DNA from: Meghimatium bilineatum
Lineage: Eukaryota > Mollusca > Gastropoda > Stylommatophora > Philomycidae
DNA length: 64,000 bases
NCBI GenBank assembly: GCA_034231615.1
Contig: CM067298.1
Location: forward strand, 25,438,528 to 25,502,527
Direction: 5' to 3'
The position numbers and the translations under genes were made by a program. The notes under the pieces are model-generated. The model worked only from the letters and a program-made list of their open reading frames with translations. It did no database searches and had not been told where the DNA came from. Positions 1 through 58,464 of the stretch are shown here, piece by piece; position 1 is the first letter of the stretch, and each line of letters starts with the position of its first letter.

Positions 1-526
1 ATTTTGCTGAGGTGTGTCTCTTGTATGCAGCAAGTGCTGACCTGCTCCTTAAGAAGAGTGTTCTCTAATTCTAATTTCTTGCTAAAGCCATCTTTTTTTT
101 TGCTATTTACACCCTCAGCATTCCAGTGCATTATTATAAGTGGTTTGTCATTGATTGGTAATACTTGTTGGGCAGTGATATTACTATTGTGCCTCCTGGC
201 TCCACAAGGCAATTGAAGAGGATCTCAAGTCACTTAGGGTGGGCCCTTTTGAGGTATAGGGTCTGGTGCTACTCCCGCCTGGTTAGTCATCACATTGTTA
301 GCACCATCTGGGGTATTGCAGATATAGACATTCAAGTGCAATAATGCATGACATTCTTGTTGTTGTGGTGCACCTTCTAGCCAAATGTTGCTGACTTCAG
401 CACCGTTACTTACTAGGTAAGACTGTGGTCCTAACCGAATGTGGGATGGTCCGGCCAGTCTTAGTTTCCAGCCTCTGCTGGCAGGACTAAGTCCCATCTC
501 CTCGCCAAGAAGCTGGTCTCGATGGG
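1..526 (-). mobile_element. I-like LINE, 5' end of a truncated or edge-cut copy
   Basis: This stretch is the reverse complement of the 5' UTR and N-terminal coding part of the intact LINE at 19361-23414. The antisense of 4-216 matches the antisense of 22893-23105 almost residue for residue, and 400-526 matches the 5' UTR (shared words such as CCAGTCTTAGTTTCCAGCC). The 5' terminus lies at GATGGG, position 526, the same point where the intact copy ends. The reading frame appears broken near the endonuclease start, so this copy is probably dead. The rest of the element would lie to the left of the window. Confidence 0.8.
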
Positions 527-802: not shown

Positions 803-1072
803 CTTGTTCTTCTTGGGCGTTCTCACAAACTCCTGCAGATTAGCAGGATGTGGTCCAGCGAACATTATTCGATGTACCATGTTTTAAAACCTGACTGCAA
901 TATCTGCACCTTTCAGCCTTACACATCCAATGTTAGAATTTTTGACTATGCACGAGATTGGACGGACAGCCAACTCCACCCCCAAAACATACTTAGTCGC
1001 CTAGTACGGCATGCGTGACAGGTAACAGTCTCGCTATTCTTTGCTCCCTTTCAGCCCCAACAATACACGTTC
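803..1072 (-). mobile_element. SINE subfamily A copy (diverged)
   Basis: The reverse complement follows the SINE A consensus seen at 3304-3586: a head with GGGAGCAAAGAATAG, then GGCGACTAAG, GGAGTTGGCTGTCC, AGGCTGAAAGGTGCAGATAT, ACATCCTGCTAATCTGCAGG, and a tail that has decayed to AAGAAGAACAAG. This is the clearest near-full-length A copy on the - strand. It lies head-to-head with the SINE B copy immediately to the right. It has no protein-coding content. Confidence 0.8.
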
Positions 1073-1108
1073 AAGTGTAATTTTGTTCAAGTCACCAGAA
1101 TTATACCG

Positions 1109-1275
1109 TCCATCAGAGACGGATGTGTCAGGCCATTGGCGTGAATAAAACAGCGACAAAGCGCATTTCCATTCTCTGGGCTGCATCCTGGTGGAAATCT
1201 AGTAGGACCATTTTCCTGTTCTACAAAGAGAGGTCCAGCGGGAGTTTCAGAATGAACGCTGAAGAAGAAGAAGAG
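1109..1275 (+). mobile_element. SINE subfamily B copy
   Basis: Contains the B signature: GACGGATGTGTCAGGCCATT, ATTTCCATTCTCTGGGCTGC, GGAAATCTAGTAGGACCATT, then GAATGAACGCTGAAGAAG running into a GAA tail. It shares its front (GATGTGTCAGGC), centre (CATTCTCTGGACTACATCCT) and tail with SINE A but has a different segment before the tail. I found no obvious target duplication. Confidence 0.85.
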
Positions 1276-3292
1276 TTAAAATAACAAACATTTAAGAACA
1301 AGACAGACTATTTTAGTTTGAAATTTAGAATATTTATATTTCAATGTGAATTATTATTTGTCGAGTGACACTTATATATGACTCTGCATGCAATAATGCT
1401 CGATCTAGGTCATGTCTTGTTGTTGTCATAGATTTATGGACCTTATACTTTTGACCAAATACTTCATCTTCTAATAAATATGCATTACTTTTCAACATTT
1501 GCAATATGAGATCTTGATGGAGATTTATTGATGACATATGACAAGTTCACAGTTCCTCATTTGCAAACGACATAGTTTTGTGAACTATCTCCATACAATA
1601 TATCCCATGAGTCCATACTCTCATGTAAAATATTTTGTCACACTGATGTAAATTAATTGAAGCATATCCTTTATAGGGCATAGTTTTTCAATTATTGTTG
1701 TATTTTTAGACATTACTCATACATGCAATCATATTGCCCCAGTACAGTGTAGATGATTGACTTTAACCATGAGAACTGCCAAGAGTAGAAATGCTCGGAA
1801 GCAATTGGGTATCGACAACAGCTATGAGATAGTTCAAATGTGCTTAGTTTGGGAGTCTGGCCTAGTAACCTCTCCACCACCAAACTGTATAGATGTCAAC
1901 TTATTTTTTCATAAATCCATATTTTCATTTCTAACAATTTATTTCTGTAATTCAATAAAAAAAGTTCCATATTTAGCACATCTCCCCCCCCCCCCCCCCC
2001 CAAAGCCACACATGCACACCATTTCTTCCCCCCCCCCTCCTCCCCCAAATCGATACATTCAATACGTGCTTGTGCAATATAAATGTCAGAATGAGTAGTA
2101 ATTACTGAAGATATAACATCAAATGCCTTTTAATTTGGTGTTTTGGGGATTTTACCAACTTATTTGTCAACAAGTTTTGTCAACTTATTTTTCCATAAAT
2201 CCGTAATTTTAACAATTTATTTGCGTATTTCAATTAAAATCGTCAGTGTTTAGCATTGCCCATCAATATATGCTTATGCGATAAAAACATCTGCATTAGT
2301 AGTAATTACTGACAATGTAACCTGAAATACTATGTTTAAAATTGGGTTTTTGTGGGGAGGTGGCCTGAAATCCATACTAGTTGACACCTGTGGAACTGAC
2401 ATACACTTATTAGGATTCATTATTATTTTGACTCAAAAAGAGTTGATGAGCCCTGGAGAAAGTGGTGGAGCATAATCAGATGTATTTAACACATGTCCAG
2501 GGTACTGTGAGAAGACATGTTAGATGACTTGAACATATGTCCATGAGATCTAGTCAGATAACATGGACAGATAAATTTAACACATCTTGACTGGTTAACA
2601 TGATATGGTGAAACAAGTTATTAGTGTTATTGATTATAACCAAAGTTGATCGTTATTCCTGTTTTTATATACACTTAAATTATTATAAATGTTTATAATT
2701 GTATATGATCGTATGAATATTATGAGTTCTACCAGGGTGCATGGAAAAGAAGGCCAAACAGCTAAATTTAAACATCCACTCAGCTGGGGTATTTTTTTTG
2801 GACTATCGACAGAAACAAGCTATTGCACTATTCTATTGCACATTGCTGCAAAATGCTATTTATTTCTTTTTTTTTTATTGGCTCACGACACGTGAGAAGC
2901 CTCTCTTGGTGATTATCATTAAGGTAGTGTGATGGTCTGTTGCTACCAATAGGTCACAAAAAGGCACCATTAGAGTGAATTTTTACCTTTAGTTGTCTGG
3001 TCTTCTCTCCTGTGTGCCACAGTTCTACAATTGAAAATCGTCATATTAGAAAACTTAGCCATATTTGTTTCAGCGATAAGTAGCAATTAAAGGAAATATG
3101 TTTTGTTTTGAAGCAAGCCCAGAAGTCCTACATCACACCTGCAGGAATTTTAAATAATGTTACTGTATTTTAATTAAATTAGATTTTTATCATGATAGAA
3201 TCTGTGTAAGCAAATGAAAACGTAACACTTTTGAAGATGGTACCTCAATGTGTTTTTTAAAACCTTTCCTGCAGTGGGATGTTATGAATTTC
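1276..3292. other. Gene-less stretch with a tandem duplication and poly-C tracts
   Basis: No convincing coding sequence. The segment about 1885-2110 is repeated in diverged form at about 2178-2330 (shared words TCAACTTATTTTT, CATAAATCC, AACAATTTATTT and AGTAGTAATTACTGA). The first copy carries two poly-C runs near 1984 and 2029. The proline-rich open frame across them is just the poly-C. Confidence 0.6.
1885..2330. repeat. Diverged two-copy tandem duplication, about 280-bp period
   Basis: Two copies in direct orientation share a series of short words in the same order. The left copy has acquired poly-C expansions that the right copy lacks. Confidence 0.6.
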
Positions 3293-3303: not shown

Positions 3304-3586
3304 CGCCTGTGTGTTGCCAGGCCCAAGAGGGAAGCAAAGAATAGTAACACTGTTTACCTTCCATGTATGTTGTAAGAGGCGACTAAGGAAATTATGGGAT
3401 GGAGTTGGCTGTCCCATCCCATATATGGTCAACATGACCCAAAGCCATGCTAAAGTCAGATGGTCAGGCTGAAAGGTGTAGATGTTGCAGCATTGCTGTA
3501 AACCATGACACAACGCATTCCGTTCTCTGGACTACATCCTGCTAATCTGCAGGAGTTTTAGAATGAACGCAGAAGAAGAAGAAGTG
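3304..3586 (+). mobile_element. SINE subfamily A, full-length reference copy
   Basis: A 283-bp insertion bounded by an 11-bp target-site duplication, TGTCTAGAAAT, at 3293-3303 and 3587-3597. The duplication defines the ends: the element begins CGCCTGTGTG and ends GAACGCAGAAGAAGAAGAAG. Internal landmarks are GGGAAGCAAAGAATAGTAAC, AAGAGGCGACTAAGG, AGTTGGCTGTCCCATCC, CAGGCTGAAAGGTGTAGATG, ACCATGACACAACGCATTCC and ACATCCTGCTAATCTGCAGG. I see no convincing A/B-box pair, so the source of the head (tRNA, 5S or other) is unresolved. Open frames on both strands across it are meaningless. Confidence 0.9.
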
Positions 3587-4469: not shown

Positions 4470-5095
4470 TAAACATAAAAATACATAAAGAGAAACTGCA
4501 ACAAGTAGAATATTATCAATATCTCAACACATAATCACAAATGATGGCAGATGTGAAACAGAAGTTAAAAGGAGAATAGGAATCGCTAAAAGTACTTTCA
4601 ATGAAATGATGAAAATATTAACATTTAAACAAATTACAAAGTTAAAAATGAGAATTATGAAAAGCTACATCTATTCTATATTAAAATATGGCTCAGAAAA
4701 ATGGACACTAAACAAACAATTAGAAGACACAATTTATGCCTTTGACATGTGGATATATAGAAGAATAGGGAGAATATCATGGAAAGAGAAGAAAACAAAT
4801 AAAGAGGTTCTAAAAATACTTAATATGAAGAAAGAATTATTAAGAGAAATAAAGATAAGGCACATAAAATATTTTGGACACATTAAAAGGCATAACACCC
4901 TAATGAAGATGTTACTTGAGGGTAATGTCAAAGGGAAGCGAGCAAGAGGTAGGCAGAGATACTAGTGGGAGAGTAAAATCACAAGATGGACAGGTTACAG
5001 TCTAGCAGAGTACACCACCAAGACAAGAGACATGGGATGTTGGAGGTCTATTGTAACCAACCTTCATTGCGGAGACAGTACTTGAAGATGATGAT
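4470..5095 (+). mobile_element. RTE-like LINE, 3' end remnant
   Basis: An open frame at 4606-4962 encodes the post-catalytic part of a reverse transcriptase: KMRIMKSYIYSILKYGSE, then AFDMWIYRRIGRISWKEK, KYFGHIKRH and GKRARGRQRY. It closely parallels the - strand copies at 18500-19051 and 61800-62130. Diverged coding with stops extends upstream to about 4470 and downstream through GTTACAGTCTAGCAGAG to GATGATGATTACTG at 5095. The catalytic RT core is missing, so this is a 5'-truncated dead copy. Its 3' end abuts a 46-bp minisatellite. Confidence 0.85.
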
Positions 5096-5820
5096 TACTG
5101 TGAGCGAACAAGAAATATATGTTGTAGTACCGTTATTATATTACTGTGAGTGAGCAAGAAATATATGTTGTAGTACCGTTATTATATTACTGTGAGCGAA
5201 CAAGAAATATATGTTGTAGTACCGTTATTATATTACTGTGAGCGAACAAGAAATATATGTTGTAGTACCGTTATTATATTACTGTGAGCGAACAAGAAAT
5301 ATATGTTGTAGTACCGTTATTATATTACTGTGAGTGAGCAAGAAATATATGTTGTAGTACCGTTATTATATTACTGTGAGCAAACAAGAAATATATGTTG
5401 TAGTACTGTTATTATATTACTGTGAGCAAACAAGAAATATATGTTGTAGTACCGTTATTATATTACTGTGAGCAAACAAGAAATATATGTTGTAGTACCG
5501 TTATTATATTACTGTGAGTGAGCAAGAAATATATGTTGTAGTACCGTTATTATATTACTGTGAGCAAACAAGAAATATATGTTGTAGTACCGTTATTATA
5601 TTACTGTGAGCAAACAAGAAATATATGTTGTAGTACCGTTATTATATTACTGTGAGCAAACAAGAAATATATGTTGTAGTACCGTTATTATATTACTGTG
5701 AGCAAACAAGAAATATATGTTGTAGTACCGTTATTATATTACTGTGAGCAAACAAGAAATATATGTTGTAGTACTGTTATTATATTACTGTGAGCAAACA
5801 AGAAATATATGTTGTATTAA
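5096..5820. repeat. 46-bp minisatellite, about 15.7 copies
   Basis: Head-to-tail units of 46 bp beginning TACTGTGAGCGAACAAGAAA and ending CCGTTATTATAT. The units are nearly identical and differ mainly in the word after TGAG (CGAACA, TGAGCA or CAAACA). The final unit decays at TATTAATG. The first unit starts directly at the end of the LINE remnant. Confidence 0.95.
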
Positions 5821-5831
5821 TGTTATAATTT

Positions 5832-6690
5832 TGATACTAAAATATGGACTCATGTGTACAAAGATGAATCGACAGAGGTAACTATAAAAAATGGAGGAGG
5901 AGACATAAGATATAATAACAGAAAGAGCCTCAGTAAATCATTCCCAACAGGAAAGACATTCAAACTTCAGAGCAGAAGCTAAGGCACTCCTGCAGGCACT
6001 GAGAGCTCTCGTTTCCACAGATCATCCAACACCATCCAATGTAGTAATATTCACGGACTGCACATCCTTATTGGAAACATTACAAAGCAACAAAAATGAA
6101 AAACATAATACACAAAATCAAACATTATAAAAAAGGTCAAACATCGCTCTTCAGTGGCTACCACCCATTGGAAAATGAGAGAGTTGATGCCCTGGAAAAA
6201 GCAGAGAAGAAATGGAACAATTCACGCTGAAGTCGGATGTGTCAGGCCGAAAGGCGCAGATATCGCAGCAATGCTGTAAACCATGACACAACGCATTCCG
6301 TTCTCCGGACTACATCCTGCTAATCTGCGGGAGTTTGAGAACGAACACAGAAGAGAAGAAATGGAACAATTTAGCTATCCTCTGCCATACAGTGACGCCA
6401 AAACAATAATCCGCAACTTGTATACATCACAGTGGAAGAAAGATATGGATATTGACTCGAAACCAGACCCCCATACATCAACTTCACAGGCAACAACAGA
6501 TCATCATCTTTCGACTTAGAACTAACCACTGTGGGCTACAGAGTGAGGTACAAAGAACTGCGAGGCAAGACTGGCCACAATGTACCGAACTGAGGCAAAA
6601 ACTTTCGGGCAGACGCTCTGTCCTGGAGAAGACTTGAAGCTTCACCCTGAAGATCTAGCGAGACCAAAAGATTTCTGAACGCAAAAGAAG
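5832..6690 (+). mobile_element. I-like LINE remnant, RNase H domain, interrupted by a SINE
   Basis: Translation gives RNase H landmarks in order: WTHVYKDEST (normally YTDGS) near 5840, FRAEAKALLQALRALVST near 5968, VVIFTDCTSLLETLQSN near 6046, and LQWLPPIG..NERVDALEKA near 6152. Frame changes occur between them. After the SINE at 6223-6351 the frame resumes as EQFSYPLPYSDAKTIIRNLY. The element is 5'-truncated by the minisatellite and carries degraded catalytic positions (K for the T of YTDGS). It is not functional. Confidence 0.8.
6223..6351 (+). mobile_element. SINE subfamily A, 5'-truncated, with a 20-bp target duplication
   Basis: A 129-bp insert containing CGGATGTGTCAGGCCGAAAG, GCAGCAATGCTGTAAACC, GACACAACGCATTCCG and ACATCCTGCTAATCTGCGGG. 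It sits between two perfect 20-bp direct repeats (AGAGAAGAAATGGAACAATT) at 6203-6222 and 6352-6371. The repeat includes host RNase H coding sequence, so the insertion point in the LINE is unambiguous. Part of the right repeat could overlap the GAA tail, but the last 11 bp cannot. Confidence 0.92.
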
Positions 6691-12229: not shown

Positions 12230-12700
12230 AACGCGAAAAGTAAACAGATGTAATTGAAAAGTTTTGCTACACAGTTCAATGTGGAACTCTGCCGCAGATG
12301 GATGTGTCGGACCATTAGCGCAAATAAAAACGGCGACACAATGCATTTTTATTCTCTGGACTACATCATGTTAGTATGACTTTGGTCTTGCTACAAAAAA
12401 GATCCAGAGGGAGTTTGAGAATGAATAATGAAGACAATGTGGAACCAGCTGATGTGCCTGATAACCTACAATACAAAATCATTCAGCTGCAAAGCGATGA
12501 TGAGCTGAAAGCTAGACACACCAACATCTCACTGCATGAGTTCAACAAACGTTACATAAGCCTAAAAACTTATGAAGTTCCATCTCTGGGAATACATGCA
12601 TTGAAATATGCATCTGTTTCCGGAAGAATTTACTGTTGTGTGCAGAGATGAATCCTAAATAAAGTAAATAGGTTACCTGTGAATATCTAACTATCGATAT
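12230..12700 (+). pseudogene. hAT-type transposase C-terminal remnant (ZBED5/FAM200-like)
   Basis: Removing the SINE at 12288-12434, the + strand reads SFATQFNVE before the insert, then PADVPDNLQYKIIQLQSDDE, LKARHTNISLHEFNKRY and YEVPSLGIHALKYASVSG. This is the pattern at the C-terminus of hAT-derived proteins such as ZBED5, FAM200 and GTF2IRD2: a PxxLQxxxIxLQxDxxLK helix followed by P-x-L-x8-SxFGSTYxCEQxFS. Here the final block has decayed (GRIYCCVQR) and stops follow immediately. Upstream transposase domains are not visible. This is either a dead transposon fragment or a retrocopy of a domesticated gene; I favour a transposon remnant. Confidence 0.7.
12288..12434 (+). mobile_element. SINE subfamily B with an 11-bp target duplication
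   Basis: A 147-bp insert with GATGGATGTGTCGGACCATT, ATTCTCTGGACTACATCATG, GATCCAGAGGGAGTTTGAGA and a decayed GAATAATGAAGA tail. It is bounded by a perfect 11-bp direct repeat, CAATGTGGAAC, at 12277-12287 and 12435-12445. The repeat is part of the hAT-like reading frame, so the insertion is dated after that copy. Confidence 0.9.
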
Positions 12701-12879: not shown

Positions 12880-13207
12880 CTATATCGTCTATGTTGATTA
12901 TTAGTTTGATCTGTTTTATCTATTGTCATAATTTTTGTTTTCTGTGCGTTGAGATATAGATTTTGGACCTCACCGTATTTCTTTGTTGTTGTAATTAGCT
13001 GTTTCATTCCCTCAGGATGTGTAGTAAGGAGGACTGTATCATCTGCATATCTTATTTCTAGAATCTTGTACCCACCGATATTTATTGGATGAAACTCATT
13101 TTCCTCTAGTTCTTCTCTTGCATTTCTCATTATATTCTCTGCATATATGTTAAAAATATAAGGCGATAGAGTGCACCCCTGTCTCACTCCACTTTGAACC
13201 TCGAACC

Positions 13208-13383
13208 CGCCGAAGACGGATGTGTTGGGCCATTGGCGCAATAAAACGGCAACACAACGCATTTCCATTCTCTGGACTATATTCAACTGGAAATTTTGTA
13301 GAACCATTGTCCTGTTCCAAGAGAAATCCAGCGGGAGTTTGAGAATGAACGCTGAAGAAGAAGAAGAAGAAGAAGAAGAAGAA
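13208..13383 (+). mobile_element. SINE subfamily B inserted in the RT gene
   Basis: GAAGACGGATGTGTTGGGCC, CATTTCCATTCTCTGGACTA, AGAAATCCAGCGGGAGTTTG and GAATGAACGC, then a long (GAA)n tail. It lies between - strand codons for TSEWF and FEVQSGVRQG, which are normally contiguous, so the host RT is cleanly split. The flanks GAACC and AAACC suggest a short imperfect target duplication. Confidence 0.9.
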
Positions 13384-17219: not shown

Positions 17220-17669
17220 TAGATCATCCCTATTCTATCATATGGGTGCGAAAGTTGGAAAGCCACAAAAGCCACAGATAAAAGACTCGACTCCTTTGAA
17301 AACAAATGCCTACGTACCATTCTGAACGTTAAGTGGAGTGACTTTAAATCTAACACTACTATAAGAGAGGAAAGCAAACATACCTATATATCTTCCTTCA
17401 TTAGACAAAGGCGTTGGACTTACATCGGCCATGTTCTCAGAATGAACAGCCTAAGAATTCCCCAGCAATCACTATATTGGGTGCCACCTGGAGTAAGAAG
17501 AAGAGGGAGACCTAGAGAAACTCTACGAAGAACCATTAATAGAGAAGGCATGTCAATGACCCTAAACAACACGCAACAATTGAAAGACCTGGCAACACAA
17601 AGACAGAAATGGAAGGCTATGATTTCTGCCCTATGCGCCGCCTATGGCCCTGGAGGAACATAACATAAC
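17220..17669 (+). mobile_element. RTE-like LINE 'AAYGPGGT' family, 5'-truncated, 10-bp target duplication
   Basis: A 450-bp insert flanked by ATACATCAAT at 17210-17219 and 17670-17679. It encodes the RT C-terminus: NKCLRTILNVKWSDFKSN, RQRRWTYIGHVLRMNSLR, RRRGRPRETLRRTINREG and SALCAAYGPGGT, then a short AACATAACATA tail. It differs from the - strand copy at 24766-25799 at only a few positions over the shared 440 bp, so both are young. A typical 5' truncation leaves no catalytic core. Confidence 0.92.
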
Positions 17670-17679
17670 ATACATCAAT

Positions 17680-18495
17680 ATGTGTGACATTTGTTTATGC
17701 TGACAATAACAGGCAGGTCACGACTCATCGTTGCACGTGACAGATCGTTGCTAAATATGTGTTTGCTTTATTGAAAATGGAGAGTAAATAGGGTAAATAT
17801 TCAACGTTGACCAGAATGGAAAAAAACCGCAGGTTTTCCCTTACACCTTCCCTTACATTATGATTGTATGTCTGTAATATTCATTCTCTGTTGCCACGTT
17901 TGAGGTAAGTATTTTTACTTTACTTGCTATATATCGTTTCCTTTTTTCCACCTCACTTTCTTCTGTCCACTTTACCCTCCACACTTACTACTATCCTCTC
18001 CCTTCTCTCCTGTCATGCTGCTACATCTTTGCTTACTCCATTATTAATCTGCTATTGTCCTCCTCTCCTCCTTATTATAACCCTATTTGTCTCCATGTAA
18101 GATTTGTTTTATTGTGGTCGTTTGTTTGTTCTGATGACGGCTTTTTTAACCAGAACGTAGTCTGTCCCTGTATCTCGTTGTTATGTTGTTTTATGTTTTA
18201 TTTTGGTAACACATCTAATTATTTTTGTTTATCTTGATATATGCGTTGCTTACCCTGGCGATCTGTGCGTATCCAGCGAATTCTCCCACCAGCGTAGAAA
18301 TACAACTTCATGGAATGTCAGAGCGCACAACACTTTTTTGACGGCAATATTCCACTATTTTGCAGAAATGAGACAGCATCATTTTCTGTCTGTGACAGGT
18401 TTAACATGAGGAACCTGTCTTTATTTTCTTGAACTAATCGGAAAGTTTTTAACCAAACGGACAGTGTTGCCAGGTAGTTCCGACAAAAGAAATAG
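17680..18495. other. Gene-less, pyrimidine-rich on the + strand at about 17930-18250
   Basis: The tract is rich in CTTTCTTC-like words and ends near TATTTTGGTAACAC. Similar pyrimidine-rich sequence with GTTATGTTTTGTTT..GGTAACAC occurs at 24350-24390 and 25811-26190. It may be part of an unrecognised element. Confidence 0.45.
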
Positions 18496-19360: not shown

Positions 19361-22300
19361 TTCTTCTTCTTCTTTCGTTCACTTGAAACATGTCTATATC
19401 TGTAATTCTGTCTCCTTAATAAAACTCACTGTCTTTTGTAGTTCATACAGTGTCCCATAGAGTTTTGATTCCAGTGTTGTTTCCTCTGGCCAATATGTCT
19501 GCCTCAGCGTTTCATGCTCAGAACACTCTTGAAGTATATGTTTGGCACTCTGTGCTGCCTGTACACATGTACACATGGCTGTGTTGCCAATCTTGAACTT
19601 TGTATACATGTGACTGCGGAGTCGGTTGTGTCCTGTTCTGAGACGTAGAATTATAACTTGTTCTGGTCTGTTCATAATATGATAGTCATCGTGTGTTGGT
19701 GTTTGTGGCTTTCTTATTGACTTGATCATCTGTTTTTTCTGATGGTAGGTGATTGGTATATCTGGTTGGTCTTCGGCAGCACCTTCCTTAGCCAGTTGGT
19801 CTGCTTTTTCATTTCCTGGTATTCCACAGTGAGAGGGTATCCACTGCATGGTTACCCTATACTGGTAAGACAATTCGCTAAGTAGTTTTTTCAAGTCTGT
19901 TAGTTTTTCAGACTGGAGAGCTTGAAGCACTGACCTTGCATCTGTCAGGAATACCACAGGCTGTAGGTCAGAGTTGGAGTTCAGAAGTTTTTTAGCTGCC
20001 ACACTAATTGCCTGGATTTCTGCATCATAATTATTGCAGAATTTTCCTGTCGGTGTTCTGATTGTATCTCTAGGCTTGTGTGGATATTCTATATATACAC
20101 CTGCACCTCCATTCCTCACGGCATTCTGTGCTGACCCATCTGTGTATACTCTGACCCATATATCTTGTGGATATTCCTCATCCAGGAAACTGAGGGTGAC
20201 TGTCCTTCGCTGCACACTGTTCTGTTCGTCCACGCTTAGTATTCCTTTCACATGGGTCTGAATATATATTGGCATTCCATGTCTTTCACTCCACGGGGTT
20301 TGTTCTGGTACAGGCCTTAAGGGGCTGTCAACTTCAGGTAGGTCTGTAAGTTGTCTGCGGAGTCGTTTAGCTTGATGGATAAAGCTGCTTCTTTTCAGTC
20401 GTCCCATTGCTAGATTTTGGAATCTTTCCTTCATTGGATGACTTGGCATACACTGAAACTTTTCTGCCTGAATTAGTACTTTTGTGTCTCTGCGTTCGCC
20501 AAGTGTTTGCATTCTTCCCATTTTCTGCATCTCTGCTATGGGTGTTGATTTCATTGCTCCCAACATTATTCTAAGTGCCTGGTTTTGCACTTTATCTAGA
20601 TCTTGCAATGTGGTGTTTGATGCAGGACACCACGCAGCTGAACCATATTCCAGGTGTGGTCTTATGCCTTGCTGGTAAACTTTACTGAGTATATTCCCAC
20701 TGGCTCCACATGTGGTTCCACTTAGTTTTCTCAGGATAGCTAACTTCCTCCTGGCTTTTGTTGTTGCTTTGTTTATGTGCTGCTTCCATGTCAGTTTATC
20801 ATCAAAAGTAACTCCGAGGTATGTGGGTTGTTTGTCTTCTTTCAAGAGCTCTCCATCTATTTTGATATGACCGGCTTTTTGTTTTGGTGAGAGGGTAAAA
20901 AGTGTAGTGCTGCACTTATCTGTGTTAATGCTGACGCACCATCTATTAGCCCATAAGGTTATGGCATCGATAGCTCTTTGTATTTGTTTAGTGGCCACTG
21001 TCGCATGTTCTTCTGTGCACCAGATCACCAGGTCGTCAGCATACATTGCCACTTTGATCCCGTGTGGTAGTTCAGCAACTAGGTCATTGATGTAAACCAA
21101 GAAAAGTGTGGGCGACAGGACTCCTCCCTGAGGGACTCCATGACGCAGTAGAACTTTCTTGCTCTTGCGACCATCTAATTGTACCCTGGCTCTTCTATTA
21201 TGCAGGTATGCTTTTACCCATTTATACATTCTTGAGCTAACCCTGCAATTTCGCAATTTCTTTAGGAGCCCTTCTTTCCAGACCTTATCAAATGCTTTCC
21301 TGAGGTCTATCCATGCTGCTAGTACCAGTTTCTTATCTTGGAAGGCATCCTCAATCTCTTGGGAGAGGTAGGTTGCCTGATCTTCAGTAGAGTAGCACTG
21401 TCTGAAACCTGCTTGCTGTGATACCAGAAGGTTTTCACTTTCTAGGTACCACTGCATCCTAAGATTGATAATGCGTTCCATTGTTTTGCATAGACAGCTT
21501 GTGAGGCTGATGGGCCTGTAGTTGGAGACTGTGTTGCCATCTTTTCCTGATTTGAGGAGTGGTATCATTATTGCTTCTCTCCACGCCTGTGGTACATTAC
21601 CTGTGGACCAGCTTGTGTTAAAGATCTGCAGTAGCTTTGCTCTTGCTGCAATTCCCAGGTTTCTAATCATTTCATTGGACACTCCATCAGCTCCAGGGGA
21701 CTTTTTCATTTTCAATTTGGATATTGCATGCTCCAGTTCTCTCATTGTGATTGGTGCCTCCATGACTTCAGGTATAGGTTCGCCTTGTCCAATGTTTTGC
21801 TGGTTCTCTCGAAGCTCCTGTTGTTTGTCTGGGCTGACTTTGATGTTATTGTCTTCTGCAAAGGAATCTGCAAAGTAATCAGCTGCATGTTTACCTGTTA
21901 AAATGTTTCTATCTTTATAAAGTGTGATCCTGGTATTTCTCCCTGTACCTTCATCATTTAGTTGTTTTACAAGTTTCCATAATTTCCTAGTATCTCTTTC
22001 TAGGTTCAGCGACTCTGTTTTTTCTTTCCAGCTACTCCGTCTGGCTTGTAACTTGGCTCTTTGAAATTTAGCCTTTGTTTGCTGATATTTGTTGTGATGT
22101 TCTTGGCTAGGTCTGTTCTCAGCCTGCTGTCTAGATGTTTCCATCTCATTTTGCAGCTTTTCCAGTTCATCATTCCAGTAGGGTTTGTAGTTTTTGCGTG
22201 CCCCCCTGGGTATGGTTTTACTAGCAGCATGTAGTATACATCTATTAAATTCACTCACTGCTCTATTGATGTCTTTGTCCAAGTTCATGTCCTTAGCTAG

Positions 22301-23414
22301 AACACTGGTTAAATGCTGGTACATTTTCCAGTCTGCCCTCTTATAGTTCCACCTAGTGAGCGTGCTGCTGTCCTTGGTAAATTCATTGTGGATTTCCAGA
22401 AATACTGGTCTGTGGTCACTACCCCCAAGCTGCTTTCCAATGACACGTGTGATGTTCCATTCCAGGCCTGGTGAGTGGAATGCCAGATCTGGTGTAGAGG
22501 TGGTGTGCCATGCTCTCGAGTAGAAGGTCGGTGAGTCAGCTGGCTGGTTAATAAGGATGAGATTATTTTCATCCTGCCAGCTCTCAAGTTCCTCACCTCT
22601 CTTGTCGATATGATCGTAGCCCCAGCTCTGAGAGTGGCTGTTGAAGTCACCACACACCATAAGTCTCTCTTTATCTGGAATTGTGTCTAGTGCCAATGGT
22701 TTATCATTTGGGCAGTAGTAGTTCAGGAGATGGAATTCTGCACTGTCTGTTTTTAGGTGGAGCATCTGGTATTCTGCCCCTTCCATATATACTTCCAGCT
22801 GACATGCGCTGATATTGTTTTTAACAAGTGTCAGAATTCCACCCTTTCGCCTGTCCTTTCGGTCAGATCGGTAGCACTGGTAGCCTCTGATTTTGAAGGC
22901 TATGTCGCTGCTGAGGTGTGTTTCTTGGATACAGCATATATTAACTTGTTCTTCACTGAGGACATTTTCAAGTTCCAATTTTTTGCTGTATCCATCTCTT
23001 TTACTGTTGACACCCTCAGCATTCCAGTGCATTATTTTTATTGGTCGTTTGTTTGTTTGGCCAGTAGCTCTATTCCCTTGCCTCCTGGCTCCTCGAGGCA
23101 ATTGAGAAGGACTTTCAGTAACTGAGGTTGGGCCCTTTCGAGGTATAGGGCCCGGCACCGTCCCTGCCTGAACGTCCGCCACAGGGCAGGCACCATAACT
23201 TTTTATAGATACAGACATGTTTCCATTGTGTTTTGTGCGTGGCATCCTGATTATCTGTGCGCCTTTTGGCTGGATGCCTCCGTCTTCAGCACTCTGCTTA
23301 CTTGGGCAGGACTATGGTCCTGCTCGAATGGGACTGCCCGACCAGTCTTAGTTTCCAGCCCCTGATGGCTGAACTAAGTCCCATCACCACTGCAAGGTGC
23401 TGGCCTTGATGGGG
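19361..23414 (-). mobile_element. Intact I-like LINE, single ORF, 4054 bp
   Basis: Flanked by an 11-bp duplication, TTTTGGTTTAC, at 19350-19360 and 23415-23425. The target is a 42-bp minisatellite, with units on both sides. 5' UTR is 169 bp, the ORF has 1283 codons, and the 3' UTR is 33 bp ending AACGAAAGAAGAAGAAGAA. Two other copies (1-526 and near 41381) end at the same 5' GATGGG, so this looks full-length rather than truncated. No separate ORF1 (gag-like) lies within the duplication, unusual for I-type elements. Confidence 0.95.
19394..23245 (-). CDS. LINE polyprotein: endonuclease, reverse transcriptase, RNase H, zinc knuckle
   Basis: A 1283-residue uninterrupted protein that would nick target DNA and copy the element's RNA into it. 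AP-type endonuclease, residues about 69-282: HWNAEG (N74), QETH (E108), GDFNSH (D200, N202), GGSDHRP (D277, H278). Reverse transcriptase about 490-850: KSPGADGV, IDLRKAFD (D647), GVPQGGVLSP, YADD (735-738). RNase H about 1028-1160: YTDGSA (D1036), E1076, LTDARS (D1102), GNEKADQLA (D1149). A C-x-C-x8-H-x4-C knuckle spans 1225-1241. All expected catalytic residues are visible, so it may be active. The start is the first ATG after the 5' UTR (MPRTKHNG). The first 65 residues are low-complexity and basic. The clade (I-like, perhaps Nimb) is inferred from RNase H plus endonuclease. Confidence 0.95.
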   Translation of the reverse strand: MPRTKHNGNMSVSIKSYGACPVADVQAGTVPGPIPRKGPTSVTESPSQLPRGARRQGNRATGQTNKRPIKIMHWNAEGVNSKRDGYSKKLELENVLSEEQVNICCIQETHLSSDIAFKIRGYQCYRSDRKDRRKGGILTLVKNNISACQLEVYMEGAEYQMLHLKTDSAEFHLLNYYCPNDKPLALDTIPDKERLMVCGDFNSHSQSWGYDHIDKRGEELESWQDENNLILINQPADSPTFYSRAWHTTSTPDLAFHSPGLEWNITRVIGKQLGGSDHRPVFLEIHNEFTKDSSTLTRWNYKRADWKMYQHLTSVLAKDMNLDKDINRAVSEFNRCILHAASKTIPRGARKNYKPYWNDELEKLQNEMETSRQQAENRPSQEHHNKYQQTKAKFQRAKLQARRSSWKEKTESLNLERDTRKLWKLVKQLNDEGTGRNTRITLYKDRNILTGKHAADYFADSFAEDNNIKVSPDKQQELRENQQNIGQGEPIPEVMEAPITMRELEHAISKLKMKKSPGADGVSNEMIRNLGIAARAKLLQIFNTSWSTGNVPQAWREAIMIPLLKSGKDGNTVSNYRPISLTSCLCKTMERIINLRMQWYLESENLLVSQQAGFRQCYSTEDQATYLSQEIEDAFQDKKLVLAAWIDLRKAFDKVWKEGLLKKLRNCRVSSRMYKWVKAYLHNRRARVQLDGRKSKKVLLRHGVPQGGVLSPTLFLVYINDLVAELPHGIKVAMYADDLVIWCTEEHATVATKQIQRAIDAITLWANRWCVSINTDKCSTTLFTLSPKQKAGHIKIDGELLKEDKQPTYLGVTFDDKLTWKQHINKATTKARRKLAILRKLSGTTCGASGNILSKVYQQGIRPHLEYGSAAWCPASNTTLQDLDKVQNQALRIMLGAMKSTPIAEMQKMGRMQTLGERRDTKVLIQAEKFQCMPSHPMKERFQNLAMGRLKRSSFIHQAKRLRRQLTDLPEVDSPLRPVPEQTPWSERHGMPIYIQTHVKGILSVDEQNSVQRRTVTLSFLDEEYPQDIWVRVYTDGSAQNAVRNGGAGVYIEYPHKPRDTIRTPTGKFCNNYDAEIQAISVAAKKLLNSNSDLQPVVFLTDARSVLQALQSEKLTDLKKLLSELSYQYRVTMQWIPSHCGIPGNEKADQLAKEGAAEDQPDIPITYHQKKQMIKSIRKPQTPTHDDYHIMNRPEQVIILRLRTGHNRLRSHMYTKFKIGNTAMCTCVQAAQSAKHILQECSEHETLRQTYWPEETTLESKLYGTLYELQKTVSFIKETELQI

Positions 23415-23424
23415 TTTTGGTTTA

Positions 23425-23600
23425 CAAAATTCATGTCGTGAACATCACCCACATCTTTATGGTTTGTAACATTCATGTCGTGAACATCACCCACTTCTTT
23501 GTGGTGTGTAGGTCTATATTTATGTCGTGAACATCACCAACATATTTGTGGTTTGCAACATTCATGTCATGAACATCGCCCACTTCTTTGTGGTTTGCAG
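23425..23600. repeat. 42-bp minisatellite, 4-5 copies, target of the intact LINE
   Basis: Units of TTCATGTCGTGAACATCACC followed by CACTTCTTTGTGGTTTG. A single related unit (ATTCGTGAACATCACTCACT..GGTTTAC) lies at 19326-19360 on the far side of the LINE, so the LINE sits inside the array. Confidence 0.85.
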
Positions 23601-23724
23601 CATAGATCCACAATTTCTTAGTATCCCATCTTCAGTATTTAGCCAGAGATAATTGTCCATGTTTTCTATAAGTTCACTAAATAATTTCACCGGTCACTGC
23701 ATCCATTACAATGAGCTTATTGAC

Positions 23725-24765: not shown

Positions 24766-25799
24766 GTTATGTTATGTTCCTCCAGGGCCATAGGCGGCGC
24801 ATAGGGCAGAAACCATAGCTTTCCATTTCTGTCTTTGTGTTGCCAGGTCTTTCAATTGTTGCGTGTTGTTTAGGTTCATTGACATGCCTTCTCTATTAAT
24901 GGTTCTTCGTAGAGTTTCTCTAGGTCTCCCTCTTCTTCTTACTCCAGGTGGCACCCAATATAGTGATTGCTGGGGAATTCTTAGGCTGTTCATTCTGAGA
25001 ACATGGCCGATGTAAGTCCAACGCCTTTGTCTAATGAAGGAAGATATATAGGTTTGTTTGCTTTCCTCTCTTATAGTAGTGTTAGATTTAAAGTCACTCC
25101 ACTTAACGTTCAGAATGGTACGTAGGCATTTGTTTTCAAAGGAGTCGAGTCTTTTATCTGTGGCTTTTGTGGCTTTCCAACTTTCGCACCCATATGATAG
25201 AATAGGGATGATGTTGGAGTTAAATAACTTGAGTTTTGTGGTGTTTCTTAGTGTGTTTGACGTCCATATGTTGCGTAGTTTATTGAAAGCACCCGCTGCA
25301 AGGGCAATACGGTGTAAAATTTCTTTTGATGAGTCGCCATCCAATGCTAGATTGGTGCCTAAATATGTAAAATTGTTGACTTTTAATAATGGAGCATTTT
25401 GAATTTCTATGTTGTCGTTGGATCTCGTAAAATCTAGTATATGAGTTTTTGATGTGTTGATTTTCAACCCTATCTGATTTGAGTAGTGTTGGAGATTGTC
25501 AAGCTTAGATTGAGCATCTGTGTGGTTTGCGCTCAAAAGGGCCAGGTCATCTGCGTAGTCAAGATCTTCGAGAACGGTATTATTAATCCATTTTATTCCT
25601 GTCAGCTCATTTTCAGTGCTCTTTCTCATGACCCAATCAATAGCGACGCAGAAAAGTAATGGGGACATGATGCATCCCTGTTTAACGCCCGTAACAACTT
25701 GGAACCATTCTGACTTCTCAGTGTTTGTTTGAACACAACAATGTGAGTTGGTGTAGAATGCTTTTATAACATTGATTATTTTAGTAGGAAAACCGTATT
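24766..25799 (-). mobile_element. RTE-like LINE 'AAYGPGGT' family, 1034 bp, 11-bp target duplication
   Basis: Flanked by TCTATCCTTAT at 24755-24765 and 25800-25810. The - strand frame is open from the 5' truncation to the stop: YGFPTKIINVIKAFYTNS, GVKQGCIMSPLLFCVAID, LDYADDLALLSANHTD (catalytic ADD), LRTILNVKWSDF, GHVLRMNSLR and AAYGPGGT. The longest ATG-initiated piece is 298 residues. The tail is AACATAACATA. The endonuclease is lost by 5' truncation, but the surviving frame is intact, indicating a recent insertion. Confidence 0.93.
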
Positions 25800-27490: not shown

Positions 27491-28028
27491 GGCAGTCGAT
27501 GCCGCGTGGACGTATAATGTGTCCTGGTCTTGTACACCTTGTGTTCGGGCCTTTGTACACATTATAACCACACTGTGACCATATGAGAAACTGCCCCTCC
27601 GTAATAAAATGCACATACACTTGAATGCATTTTTTTCTATATTATTAAATTGTAATCATGTAAGTAAATGTATAGTGTAGTACTTACAATATACAGTCTC
27701 TTGAATTGTTTTTATAGTCGATCTTCACAAATTTAATAGTACCATAATATATAGTAGTAAAAATGTAATGGATATTTAAGATTGAATGAAAGTCATTACA
27801 AAATATTCATAACGTATTAATTAACAAACTAATCACAAGATTGCATACTTCAACAAAACAGTTCAAGAAATCTCAGGCTATTATGATTTAGACCAGATGA
27901 AAATTGCAATCAATGAGAACATGTGATTGTTTATTCTTGCCAATTCTCTGATACATGGAGGAGTGTTTGAAAAGTCACAAGACATGTATCCTCAGGGTAC
28001 AGTATACTTCGCCGCTTTATTTTCACTT
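27491..28028. other. No gene recognised
   Basis: AT-rich past 27630. The first 130 bp may extend the SINE A head. Nothing else seen. Confidence 0.4.
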
Positions 28029-28334
28029 GCAACAGAGATGAAATTCTGCATTACAAAGATATGTTGACACTTGCACCAGAAATGAAATTCTGTCTCACAA
28101 AGATATGTTGACACTTGCACCAGAAACGAAATTCTGTCTCACAAAGATATGCTGACACTTGTACATGATACGAAATTCTGTCTCACAAAGATATGCTGAC
28201 ACTTGCACATGAGACGAAATTCTATCTCACAAAGATATTTTGACACTTGCACCAGAGATGAAATTCTACCTCACGAAGATATGTTGACACTTACACCAGA
28301 GATGAAATTCTACCTACGAAGATATGTTGATAAA
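28029..28334. repeat. 44-bp minisatellite, 7 copies
   Basis: Units of GCACCAGAAATGAAATTCTG followed by TCTCACAAAGATATGTTGAC and ACTT, about 90% similar to each other. The last is 1 bp shorter and decays. Confidence 0.9.
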
Positions 28335-37322: not shown

Positions 37323-37664
37323 ATGGAGTTGCATGTGGTACTCTTGACAGGCGGTATATTGTTTTGTCGAGAGAGATATGGAGTTTTATGTTACAAGTGG
37401 TACTCTTGGCAGGCGGTATAATGTTTTGTCAAGAGAGATATGGAGTTTTATGTTACAAGTGGTACTCTTGGCAGGCGGTATATCGTTTTGTTGAGAGAGA
37501 TATGGAGTTTTATGCTGTGAAGGTACTCTTGGCAGACGATATATTGTTTTGTCGAGAGAGATATGGAGTTTTATATTACGAGTGGTAGTCTTGGCAGGCG
37601 GTATATTGTTTTGTCGAGAGATATGAAGTTTTATGTTATGAGTGGTACTCTTGGCAGACGGTGC
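37323..37664. repeat. 62-bp minisatellite, 5 or more copies
   Basis: Units of GTGGTACTCTTGGCAGGCGG, TATATTGTTTTGTCGAGAGA and GATATGGAGTTTTATGTTAC. Open frames on both strands are products of the repeat. Confidence 0.9.
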
Positions 37665-45215: not shown

Positions 45216-45703
45216 AGCCGAAACATTGTTGCGGTACAGTGCAAGACAACGACTGACCTGTAATTCTGGGTTGTCATGTCCAAATGCTCACTAATGCAAA
45301 AATATTGAGAAGCAAAGCGCATCTATTAAGTATATGCGAAGGTAGTACAATGCTGGAGGAAGAACCATGTGTAAGGGTAACTGAGAAAAGGGAAATCATA
45401 ATGAAAGCAATGTTCATGTTCGAGAACAAGATTTCAGCAGCAGGTTGAGTGGAAAGGAAAAGGTAGGATACTATACTGTCCTTGTAAGAAGAAAATATGA
45501 GTAAAAGCTGAAACGTCAACAGTGTGTTCATGTCAACAAACAAAACTTTGGCTGAGTGGGCAAACCAACCCTAGTCAAACTTGACTGTTTGATAAATTTC
45601 CTGTGCTGGAGCAAGGCTTACAGTCGAGATAAGGGTCAGTACCAAAGGATATGGTGCATTGGAATGTCTTAATTACACGAGACAAGTTCCCAAACAGGTA
45701 AAT
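45216..45703. other. No gene recognised
   Basis: No feature supported. Confidence 0.35.
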
Positions 45704-46122
45704 GATGAGACATTCAGTTTGTGTGATGGGTCATTGATAAGACCTTCAGTTGGTTTGATGAGCTACTGATGAAACCTTCAGTTTGTTTGATGAGCCACTG
45801 ATAAGACCTTCAGTTGGTTTGATGAGACCTTCAGTTTGTGTGATGGGTCACTGATAAGACCTTCAGTTAGTTTGATGAGCCACTGATGAGACCTTCAGTT
45901 AGTTTGATGAGCCACTGATAAGACCTTAAGTTGGTTTGATGAGACCTTCAGTAGGTTTGATGAGACTTTCAGTTGGTTTGATGAGACTTTCAGTTGGTTT
46001 GATGAGACTTTCAGTTGGTTTGATAAGCTGCTGATGAGACCTTCAGTAGGTTTGATGAGACCTTCAGTTGATTTGATGAGACTTTCAGTTGGTTTGATAA
46101 GCCACTGATGAGACCTTCAACA
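45704..46122. repeat. 21/33-bp composite tandem array
   Basis: Units based on GATGAGACCTTCAGTTGGTT (21 bp), alternating irregularly with a longer form that inserts GAGCCACTGAT. Clearly a tandem array with a higher-order pattern. Confidence 0.85.
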
Positions 46123-47570: not shown

Positions 47571-47586
47571 TTATACTCAGCAGGCC

Positions 47587-47743
47587 AACCGAAGATGGAT
47601 GTATCAGGCAATTGGCACATATAAAACGGCGACATAATGCATTTCCATTCTCTAGACTACTTCCTGCTGGAAATCTAGTAGGACTATTGTCGTGTTACAA
47701 GAGAAACCCATTGGGAGTTTGAAAATGAAAGTTGAAGAAGAAG
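47587..47743 (+). mobile_element. SINE subfamily B with a diverged target duplication
   Basis: AGATGGATGTATCAGGCAAT, CATTTCCATTCTCTAGACTA, CTGGAAATCTAGTAGGACTA and GTTGAAGAAGAAG tail. Flanks ATACTCAGCAGGCC (47573-47586) and ATATTCAGTAGGTC (47744-47757) match at 11 of 14, differing by transitions, as expected of an older insertion. Confidence 0.85.
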
Positions 47744-50798: not shown

Positions 50799-51003
50799 CT
50801 CTACCCAACAACTCTACCCAACAACTCTACCCAACAACTCTACCCAACAACTCTACCCAACAACTCTACCCAACAACTCTACCCAACAACTCTACCCAAC
50901 AACTCTACCCAACAACTCTACCCAACAACTCTACCCAACAACTCTACCCAACAACTCTACCCAACAACTCTAACCAACAACTCTACCCAACAACTCTACC
51001 CAA
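50799..51003. repeat. 13-bp tandem repeat, about 16 copies
   Basis: Units of CTACCCAACAACT, essentially perfect, with one CTAACC variant near 50972. The threonine/asparagine/leucine open frame across it is an artefact. Confidence 0.95.
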
Positions 51004-51574: not shown

Positions 51575-51987
51575 TCTTCCAACCATGTTCACATCAACAG
51601 ATATGAATGTGTTAGTCTTTCATGTGATGAAGTTCAATTCTTGGTATCAACCATGTTCACATCAACAGATATAAATGTGTTAGTCTTTCATGTGATGAAG
51701 TTCAATTCTTGGTATCAACCATGTTCACATCAACAGATATAAATGTGTTAGTCTTTCATTTGATGAAGTTCAATTCTTGGTATCAACTATGTTCACATCA
51801 ACAGATATAAATGTGTTAGTCTTTCATGTGATGGAGTTCAGTTCTTGGTATCAACCATGTTCACATCAACATATATAAATGTGTTAGTCTTTCATTTGAT
51901 GAAGTTCAATTCTTGGTATCAACTATGTTCACATCAACAGATATAAATGTGTTAGTCTTTCATGTGATGAAGTTCAATTCTTGGTAT
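51575..51987. repeat. 68-bp minisatellite, 6 copies
   Basis: Units of TTCTTGGTATCAACCATGTT, CACATCAACAGATATAAATG and TGTTAGTCTTTCATGTGATG, about 95% similar to each other. Confidence 0.95.
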
Positions 51988-52239
51988 CTCAAGAAACTAA
52001 CATAGTCAGATTTCTTGTATGAGTCTCTCACACTCCCTGCACATATCAACAATACATTTGATAAATATAGACATTCCCATTATACTCAGTTAAATGACAT
52101 TCCTCTCATAAAAGTCACTTCCTTATTATAATTTGTCAGTTAATGACATACAGAAACTCACATATAACAAAATTAACAGATATTCAACTCTGTGGACATT
52201 TTGATATTTTGAAAGTCTTGTCTTGTCTTATCCATGTGT

Positions 52240-54004: not shown

Positions 54005-54360
54005 CTTACATCCAAAGGATCTATAATTCACGGTAGAAGCTTAAATACAAGTTGGTGAGTTAATGGAGAAAGCTTACATCTTAGGTATCTAGTTGGTGAA
54101 AACTTACATCCTTGGTAACTACAGTTGGTGAGTTAATGGTGGAAGCTTACATTTTAGGTATAGTTAATGGTAGAAGCTTACATCTAAGGTGTCCATAGTT
54201 AATGGTAGAAGCTTACATCCAAGGTGTCCATAGTTGATGGTAGAAGCTTACATCCAAGGTGTCCATAGTTAATGGTAGAAGCTTACATCCAAGGTGTCCA
54301 TAGTTAATGGTAGAAGCTTACATCCAAGTTATTTATAGTTGGTGAGTTGATGGTAGACAA
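54005..54360. repeat. 35-bp tandem array, 7 or more copies, diverging to the left
   Basis: Units of ATAGTTAATGGTAGAAGCTT followed by ACATCCAAGGTGTCC are regular at 54170-54330. Upstream units carry GGTGAGTTAATGG variants. Confidence 0.85.
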
Positions 54361-54933: not shown

Positions 54934-56008
54934 ATAGGGTAGATTGGGGCAAAGATCCACACTTTAAAAAATAATAATTAAAAAAATAAGTTTTCTAACA
55001 ATTAGACATAACTACGGAACAACAAACTGTCATCAGTATATAGTTTATCTATCCATCTTACATTAGTGAGGGTATTGAATACATGCTCTTGTAATATAAT
55101 ACGAATAATGAAAGTTTATGAACTTAGGCAAATGCAGATCCTTGCCCCATTTCATGGGACAATGATTCACAGGCAAAAAGGTGATACATACCATTATAAA
55201 ATCGAGCGAGATCGAAACTGCAACAGATCTAGCAAGCTGGCAGTGTGTAAATGTGTGCTAAGAATAGATATGTATATTTTGCAATTTTAATCTGAAAAAA
55301 ACTGTTATAATAAAAAATAATTGGTAAGTTCTGTTTTAAAGCTAATTATGTCTTTGTAAGGTTGGATGATCGGTATAATCATATATATTGATCTCTCCTA
55401 GCTTTGGTATTCCTCATAACATTGACATTTTCCTCATACATTTTGAATGCAGACCTCTGTCGAAGACGGATGTGTCAGGCCTTTGGTGCACATAAAATGG
55501 CGATACAGTGCATTTCCTTCTTTGCACTACATCCTGCTGGAAATCTAGAACCATTGTCCTGTTATAAGAGAGCTCCAGTGGGAGTTTGAGAATGAATGAT
55601 CCAGAAAAAGAAGAATATGGATTTTTGCCCCAAATAATGCGCAGATCTTTACCCCAAATCACAATGTTAGAAACCTTCATAAATTCTGATGAAAAAAAAG
55701 TAGCCTAACAAGATAATGTTGTTAAGAACTTAACAACACACATTTTTCAGTTTAATCATTTAAAAAAAATTACAATTTTTAATGATAACAGCAGGCGAGA
55801 AGTTGAAAAAAATTAGATCAAACAGCGAAAAAATATCTTTCCTCATTGTTGAAAAATTGACTCGTCCTTGACCTACCAAACTTCCTGTCAAAGATTGGAA
55901 TGTTGGTGTCTGACGTAGTGGCATGTGATATTGGGAAAATCCATTGATTAGAAATAAACCCACTGAGGATCTTTGCCCAGCACAGATCTTTGCCTCCACC
56001 TACCCTAT
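54934..56008. mobile_element. Non-autonomous DNA element, 24-bp terminal inverted repeats
   Basis: The ends ATAGGGTAGATTGGGGCAAA (54934 on) and, inverted, ATAGGGTAGGTGGAGGCAAA (to 56008) match at 21 of 24. A subterminal motif, GCAGATCTTTGCCCC, recurs with small changes at about 55132, 55651, 55966 and 55984, as expected of transposase binding sites. No transposase frame. It carries a SINE B at 55456-55614. Superfamily not assigned. Confidence 0.75.
55456..55614 (+). mobile_element. SINE subfamily B inside the TIR element
   Basis: CGAAGACGGATGTGTCAGGC, CATCCTGCTGGAAATCTAGA, GGGAGTTTGAGAATGAATGA and an AAAAAGAAGAA tail. It is flanked on both sides by element sequence, so it inserted after the DNA element. 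Confidence 0.88.
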
Positions 56009-58275: not shown

Positions 58276-58464
58276 TTACTTTATATACCTTTGTGATATT
58301 TTGTTGGTATGTAAGAAAATCCCACCTGCAGAAATATTTACAATTGGATTAAGATACAATTATTTTTGTAAATGTTGACAAAGAAATTATTAAAACGTTC
58401 TTTCATGAATGACTGACTTTTTAAAGTGATTAGACTTTGAGGAATTCTATTTGATTTGTTTATA
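58276..58464. other. No gene recognised
   Basis: Short spacer. Confidence 0.3.

Follow-up and report, generated by a model that had tools for sequence, protein, structure and literature searches.

Short retroposons of Meghimatium bilineatum share a structured RNA module with the 5′UTRs of a LINE clade

The window, by which we mean the whole 64 kb stretch analyzed here (positions 25438528-25502527 of contig 1), was taken from the 1.61 Gb, 32-contig genome of the gastropod Meghimatium bilineatum. It contains a full-length LINE, LINE1, together with copies of two short elements, SINE A and SINE B (Table 1). Two further LINE families, LINE2 and LINE3, were found via the window's own 5′ edge and one additional locus (L004), while a separate LINE carrying RVT_1 and DUF6451 domains has a tail very unlike the ends of LINE1-3. 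Consensus sequences for all elements were built in this analysis from few copies each, and a literature search by topic and by sequence strings found no published description of them. Minisatellites are abundant in the window (Tandem Repeats Finder gave 48 rows for the 64 kb, a large number of which overlap), and tandem repeats host the window LINE1 copy as well as the SINE B copies of loci L001, L002, and L004 (the SINE B cases judged by eye).

Table 1 Features of the window, in window coordinates
Feature	Position	Strand	Remarks
LINE1, full length	19361 (approx.)..23414	-	within minisatellite; TSD GTAAACCAAAA flanking both sides, read directly
LINE1 ORF, 1283 aa	19394..23245	-	endonuclease, reverse transcriptase, RNase H
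LINE1 3′ end	19361..19400	-	tail string TTTCAAGTGAACGAAA(GAA)4
HDV-like ribozyme candidate	23336..23414	-	LINE1 5′ end; P1/P2/P3/P4 topology
H2, 57 nt	23236..23292	-	LINE1 5′UTR; hairpin a, 7-bp stem Y, hairpin b
LINE3-family 5′UTR	329..526	-	ribozyme-like part and H2 (345-403)
Other LINE family (RVT_1 + DUF6451)	24772-25668	-	tail AACATAACATAC
Copy of the other LINE family	~17220-17680	+	
SINE A, full length	3304..3583	+	(GAA) tail; TSD TGTCTAGAAAT; H2 3447-3517
SINE A copy	6223..6349	+	starts exactly at H2 5′ edge; own TSD
SINE B, full length	13207..13383	+	H2 13207-13261 at 5′ end; (GAA)10 tail
SINE B copy	1110..1271	+	H2 1110-1165
Older SINE B copy	12289..12425	+	with H2
Older SINE B copy	47586..47729	+	with H2
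Older SINE B copy	55457..55596	+	with H2
Minisatellites	5094-5816, 23418-23603, 28024-28330, 37328-37662, 45703-46119, 50799-51003, 51580-51988, 54131-54328, 58459-58762, 61412-61767, 62596-62970		

The LINE1 family is young, with 97-100% identity of its 3′ 535 bp across 40 copies (the 40 scored of 1175 first-look candidates). The genome has 5,918 copies of a LINE 5′ core string. When 60 such cores were followed on contig 1 (<9.36 Mb), the LINE1 tail lay at the full-length distance of 3913-3980 bp in 22, at 249-860 bp in five, and at other distances in three, and the remaining 30 had no LINE1 tail within 6 kb. The five at 249-860 bp (L162-L166) are LINE1 copies that have lost their middle but keep an intact 5′UTR and tail, and two short LINE2 derivatives (L108 and L109) are built in the same way; internal deletion thus turns LINE ends into short elements in this genome. 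Loci L104 and L105 contain a different short element, a LINE2 5′UTR with a TSD that ends in an A-run in place of GAA, and the flanks of the two are common to both.

The 5′UTRs of LINE1-3 follow a common layout (by eye), in which an HDV-like fold at the extreme 5′ end is followed by a hairpin and then by the module that we call H2, whose 3′ end lies 13-17 nt before a start codon shared by the three families. In LINE1 this codon is the ATG at ~23218 (MSVS), 17 nt past H2 (likewise by eye). The HDV-like fold was evaluated on 25 of 33 rows, after removal of L073, L080, L110, and L112, which do not represent an element start, L102, which carries a deletion, and the repeats L105, L119, and L121. Its cells are paired in 93.3% of cases vs. 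90.7% in shuffled alignments, and cells with double changes number 14 vs. 5.4, while changes on both sides affect one P2 and one P3 pair (2 pairs vs. 2.5 in shuffles). Rfam searches of these elements returned no ribozyme match and nothing close to a gathering score. We therefore treat the LINE 5′ ribozyme as a candidate, with a consistent fold and modest covariation.

H2 is found in the 5′UTRs of all three LINE families and in four groups of short elements: SINE A, SINE B, SINE C, and SINE D, the last being a fourth H2-bearing short element (locus L033, ~970-1400, minus strand, H2 at 1157-1228) with a distinct 5′ part and the end GGCGTACGATGAAGAAG. SINE B and SINE C have the module at their 5′ ends, whereas it lies ~142 nt inside SINE A and ~122 nt inside LINE1. 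Exact H2-module strings occur 11,015 times in the genome for SINE A and 6,130 times for SINE B. A regular-expression search gave 116 candidate rows, mostly chance matches, from which 59 modules were chosen by eye; degenerate copies such as those of L015, L032, L034, L058, and window positions 847-940 were left out. Removal of exact or near repeats (L039, L043, L047, L115, L037, L004:1594, and L007) and of two SINE B modules with indels (L061 and L075) left 50 sequences (49 distinct) in seven groups, three LINE and four SINE, which are related to one another.

In this set, 92.6% of the cells of the predicted structure, in which stem Y encloses hairpin b, are paired, vs. 80.5 ± 0.8% in shuffles (0 of 500 as high), and cells changed on both sides number 87 vs. 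29.7 ± 4.4. All seven pairs of stem Y show both-side changes, and sliding the partners by 1-3 columns reduced pairing to 26-41%. Two of the five covariation measures were no better than shuffles: double changes affected 7 pairs (8.3 in shuffles), and 22 further pair types were counted (22.9 in shuffles). RNAalifold, supplied with no structure, recovered hairpin a and stem Y and missed hairpin b. Among LINE1 copies, the stem occurs as GGCATCC/GGATGCC, GGCAACC/GGTTGCC (L045 and L047), and GGTATCC/GGATACC (L054), each with pairing kept, and one stem pair is broken in L055. An H-type pseudoknot was also considered for H2 and was dropped in favor of hairpin a plus stem Y. A covariance model built from the module found ten copies in the window, eight of them training sequences, including the LINE1 copy (73.2 bits); the two copies outside the training set lie at 1110-1165 (36.5 bits) and on the minus strand at 868-939 (19.5 bits).

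Comparison of the short elements with LINE 5′UTRs gave scores for SINE A of 25 against LINE1 and 27 against LINE2 (null ~11; reached by 0 of 1000 shuffles in each case) and 20.5 against LINE3 (2/1000). SINE B matched the LINE1 5′UTR (3/1000) and SINE C that of LINE2 (3/1000), while the matches of SINE B to LINE2 and LINE3 (173/1000 and 214/1000 shuffles as good) and of SINE C to LINE1 and LINE3 (355/1000 and 382/1000) were not significant. When gap costs were relaxed, the score of SINE B was 18 with the remainder of the LINE and 17 with the LINE 5′UTR. A likeness seen by eye between LINE 5′UTRs and the part of SINE A upstream of H2 was abandoned, since 597, 293, and 42 of 1000 shuffles did as well, and the case for deriving the SINEs from LINEs consequently rests on H2. 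A second likeness between SINE B and LINE1, AGCAGGACCATAGTCCTGC, scored 16 against a 99.9th percentile of 12 in shuffles, and was set aside because it is a palindrome and lies on the opposite side of H2 in the SINE.

Elements repeatedly start at the 5′ edge of H2. In a survey of SINE A, 36 matches with at least 85% identity reached the 3′ part, and three partial ones (two in L007, one in L031) were dropped. Of the 33 starts retained, 27 fall at consensus positions 1-4, four at 142-143, which are the first letters of H2, and two at 19 and 36; two pairs of loci in this set (L136/L140 and L177/L179) share flanks and are not independent. The chance of four of six short starts falling together is 6e-7 for the given 2-nt window and 9e-5 for any such window. 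Three of the four H2-edge copies have TSDs (window position 6223, L156, and L169) and one has none (L186); a separate lineage of short SINE A would give the same starts. Alignments of 56 tail-selected SINE B copies begin at position 1 in 29 and at positions 2-5 in 15, and SINE C starts at the H2 edge in three copies. The SINE B copies, 49 of them near full length, have a median identity of 89.9% to their consensus and look older than the LINE1 copies described above, which were chosen as best matches.

Repeated 5′ ends at H2 would also be expected if the module were mainly a DNA-level promoter or transcription start that sets the ends of SINE B, SINE C, and short SINE A. A-box-like words occur at one mismatch in SINE A, SINE B, and SINE C, and in trypanosome elements the Pr77 hallmark combines promoter and ribozyme, as outlined in PMC4035085. 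However, no B box is present within two mismatches in any of these three SINEs, H2 lies well inside both LINE1 and SINE A, and the compensatory base-pair changes point to selection on RNA; we judge a mainly promoter role to be on the unlikely side. The label SINE does not hold in its classical sense, since no tRNA head was found: ARAGORN called 0 tRNA genes in 13 SINE loci, and every match in Rfam searches of eight loci fell far short of the gathering score (e.g., GlsR16 at 21.4 vs. 100 bits over the H2 of L073).

Shared 3′ tails are the usual argument for a partnership between a LINE and a SINE. The first-pass annotation proposed such a partnership from a tail likeness of 20-25 bases, and the ends that it described are all present: GTTTCAAGTGAACGAAA(GAA)4 on the minus strand for the LINE, TTTTAGAATGAACGCA(GAA)4 at 3564 for SINE A, and GTTTGAGAATGAACGCT(GAA)10 at 13346 for SINE B, with a second SINE B end at 1253. 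The likeness itself is weak on closer comparison: what the tails have in common is limited to roughly YGAACG and the GAA run, which is near chance relative to shuffles. The best local alignment between SINE and LINE1 tails scores 7.5, a value matched by 119 of 2000 shuffles for SINE A and 342 of 2000 for SINE B. When tails are anchored on the microsatellite, the longest block shared with LINE1 is TGAACG (reached by 74/5000 and 96/5000 shuffles for SINE A and SINE B), and the final 25 letters show no unusual degree of identity (shuffles as good in 1661/5000 and 571/5000). Over those 25 letters SINE B has 13 identities with LINE3 and 12 with LINE1. Tail-only homology was dropped as evidence for LINE1.

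The letter preceding GAACG differs among the elements. A single exact regular expression for the LINE1 tail gave 28 matches in 30 loci (L009-L038), with T at this position every time. Tails of LINE2 and LINE3 read CGAACG-A(AA)-(GAA)n: LINE2 ends in CTCCGAACGA(GAA)n in L080 and L091, with C also in L108 and L109 and T in L112, and LINE3 ends in TTAGCGAACGAAA(GAA)n, with C in L093 and L096-L100, T in L095, and A in L101. In 20 SINE A loci picked by an internal 23-base string and read by eye, of which L177 and L179 have flanks in common, the letter is C in 18 and T in two. In 20 SINE B loci picked by an internal string (with three flank-sharing pairs), it is T in 15 and A in two, and three were unread by the script. 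With more copies, the consensus tail thus departs from that first described for SINE A, which mostly has C, and stays as it was for SINE B. The string AATGAACGCNGAAGAAGAA occurs 29,423 times in the genome (reversed control, 0), and GAGTTTGAGAAYGAACGCWGAAGAAG at 34,618 places, the first 100 of which comprise 23 C..A, 19 T..A, 58 T..T, and 0 C..T (by eye); some of the T..A places are SINE B-like, e.g., L002 and L007. From these counts, C is commoner in SINE A and T in SINE B. SINE C ends in GGAGCGAACGAAAAACAAACAAAC in two of three copies and in GGAGCGAACACAAAAC in the third, with a microsatellite unlike GAA, and shares an anchored tail match of nine letters with LINE3 (0/5000 shuffles). Since the YGAACG end is common to three LINE families, SINE A, SINE B, and two of three SINE C copies, and since SINE A mostly carries C, the tail marks a clade, not LINE1. 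The SINE-LINE link is stronger through H2 than through tail letters.

The loop of hairpin a and the tail letter may vary together. AAGA goes with TGAACG in LINE1 and SINE B, and AAGU or AAAU goes with CGAACG in LINE2, LINE3, SINE A, and SINE C, so that six of six groups match by majority (1 in 15 by chance alone, the groups being related); SINE D, a single copy left out of the six, combines AAGA with GCGTACGA and breaks the matching. It is conceivable, if doubtful, that H2 represents a novel RNA element marking the 5′ end, whether as a reverse-transcriptase stop or protein dock, through processing, or even by self-cleavage, and that corresponding variants at the 5′ and 3′ ends match each SINE to its LINE. 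The TGAACG end and mostly AAGA loop common to LINE1 and SINE B, along with 14,465 exact genome copies of the LINE1 tail string (the sole LINE tail counted), might be taken to mean that SINE A and SINE B depend on LINE1 alone, whose reverse transcriptase would recognize TGAACG..(GAA)n. Against this stand the near-chance tail likeness, the C of most SINE A tails, as in LINE2 and LINE3, and the slightly higher identity of SINE B to LINE3 than to LINE1, which make a LINE1-only partnership improbable.

Insertion sites point to LINE-type integration of the SINEs. TSDs of 10-13 bp were identified in 12 LINE copies, and 18 of 25 SINE copies have one, 17 of these being 8-15 bp long; the remaining 6-bp duplication (L005) may be due to chance. 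The LINE nick profile rests on 12 of 19 flank pairs (five gave no TSD, including that of the window LINE, read by eye, one was skipped, and one was too short), and the SINE profile on 17 of the 18 TSDs, with L005 omitted. Both give the site TY|R: T at -2 in 11/12 LINE and 13/17 SINE insertions, a pyrimidine at -1 in 12/12 and 14/17, and a purine at +1 in 12/12 and 16/17. Such a nick site, accompanied by short duplications, is common to many LINE endonucleases. Among the first 68 of the 29,423 AATGAACGCN(GAA)3 tails, all on contig 1, 56 belong to SINE B and 12 to SINE A, and a search with the LINE1 ORF found no LINE homology upstream of these 68 SINE-type tails; 0 of 68 allows a LINE share of up to about 4%. 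In five of the 68 loci (L066, L070, L126, L137, and L141, the last two sharing flanks), the match is confined to the final 38-70 bases of SINE B.

Our preferred reading, to which we assign a probability of roughly 0.7, is that a single LINE clade comprising at least three families (LINE1, LINE2, and LINE3) supplies the proteins that move SINE A and SINE B, and that these two non-autonomous retroposons keep the 3′ signal of this clade together with H2 as a selected RNA structure. The earlier proposal that a LINE drives the SINEs is supported for this kind of LINE, by H2, the nick site, and the absence of LINE among the 68 tails read rather than by the tail, but not for the LINE of the window specifically. 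An origin of H2 in a host RNA, acquired independently by LINEs and SINEs and with no bearing on their partnership, would fit the lack of clear homology between SINE A and LINE 5′UTRs beyond H2, but is very improbable given that no match of these elements to an Rfam family approaches the gathering score and that H2 and the YGAACG end occur together in LINE1-3 and SINE A-C.

Under clade-wide mobilization, a clade protein would reverse-transcribe SINE RNA in trans, with the LINE reverse transcriptase starting on the YGAACG(GAA)n end. H2 would act as RNA in the mobilization cycle, in template capture or in 5′-end definition, and would most likely serve to anchor the 5′ part of the template to the LINE protein, or to the ribosome that translates this protein. 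The 5′ ends of SINE B, SINE C, and short SINE A could in this way be set at H2. LINE 5′UTR and 3′ pieces may have given rise to the SINEs, which then drifted except in H2 and the 3′ signals, an origin made plausible by the internally deleted LINE1 and LINE2 copies, which show that it can happen.

In terms of class, SINE A and SINE B show LINE-type insertion features but have neither the defining Pol III head of SINEs nor the joined LINE ends by which SIDEs are defined. They contain H2 and a 3′ core with no LINE 5′ end, while the joined 5′ and 3′ ends of SIDEs are found in L162-L166 of LINE1 and in L108 and L109 of LINE2. A 5′-terminal HDV-like ribozyme signature, the mark of RIME and SIDER, is absent from SINE A, SINE B, and SINE C. 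As outlined in PMC4035085, the L1Tc/ingi LINEs of trypanosomatids encode endonuclease, reverse transcriptase, and RNase H and bear a 5′ HDV-like ribozyme, and RIME, NARTc, and SIDER are their short non-autonomous partners, which retain the 5′ RNA signature of the LINE. The partnership of RIME/SIDER with ingi-type LINEs described there is similar in design to that proposed for SINE A and SINE B with LINE1-3, although the trypanosomatid pair shares the 5′-terminal ribozyme Pr77, whereas SINE A and SINE B lack it, share the internal 57-nt H2, and have a GAA microsatellite tail unlike that pair (PMC4035085).

The R2 SIDE and R2/R1 hybrid SIDE of Drosophila, in the account of PMC3414825, and Persaeus of Lepidoptera, in that of PMC6740152, are LINE-derived, have no Pol III head, and are mobilized in trans, as proposed here for SINE A and SINE B. 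These SIDEs keep the LINE 5′ end, whereas in SINE A and SINE B nothing but H2 and the 3′ core has been kept (PMC3414825, PMC6740152). SIDEs are also described as rare, almost all of the earlier-known ones having low copy numbers, in contrast to the tens of thousands of SINE A and SINE B copies indicated by the 34,618 exact tails (PMC6740152). Sbg1-9 of the German cockroach, as presented in PMC9191728, resemble SINE A and SINE B in being short, having TSDs and microsatellite motifs, and depending in principle on LINEs, but they are tRNA-headed, whereas no tRNA head was found in SINE A or SINE B and their likeness to LINEs lies mainly in the 5′UTR module. By analogy, SINE A and SINE B would work like RIME/SIDER or SIDEs with a different shared RNA part.

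A covarying LINE 5′UTR structure has thus been retained by several groups of SINEs, some of very high copy number, and H2 makes the role of 5′ sequences in trans mobilization directly testable. The module may also help to explain how tens of thousands of copies arose without a recognizable Pol III head.

Some copies have multiplied along with the DNA around them. Flanks are identical or nearly so in L136/L140, L137/L141, L192/L193, L201/L202, and L205/L206, which represent recent duplications of the surrounding sequence. In addition, six same-strand SINE A cores are spaced 9.3-9.6 kb apart at contig 1:7898591-7945878, probably as part of a tandem array of a long unit.
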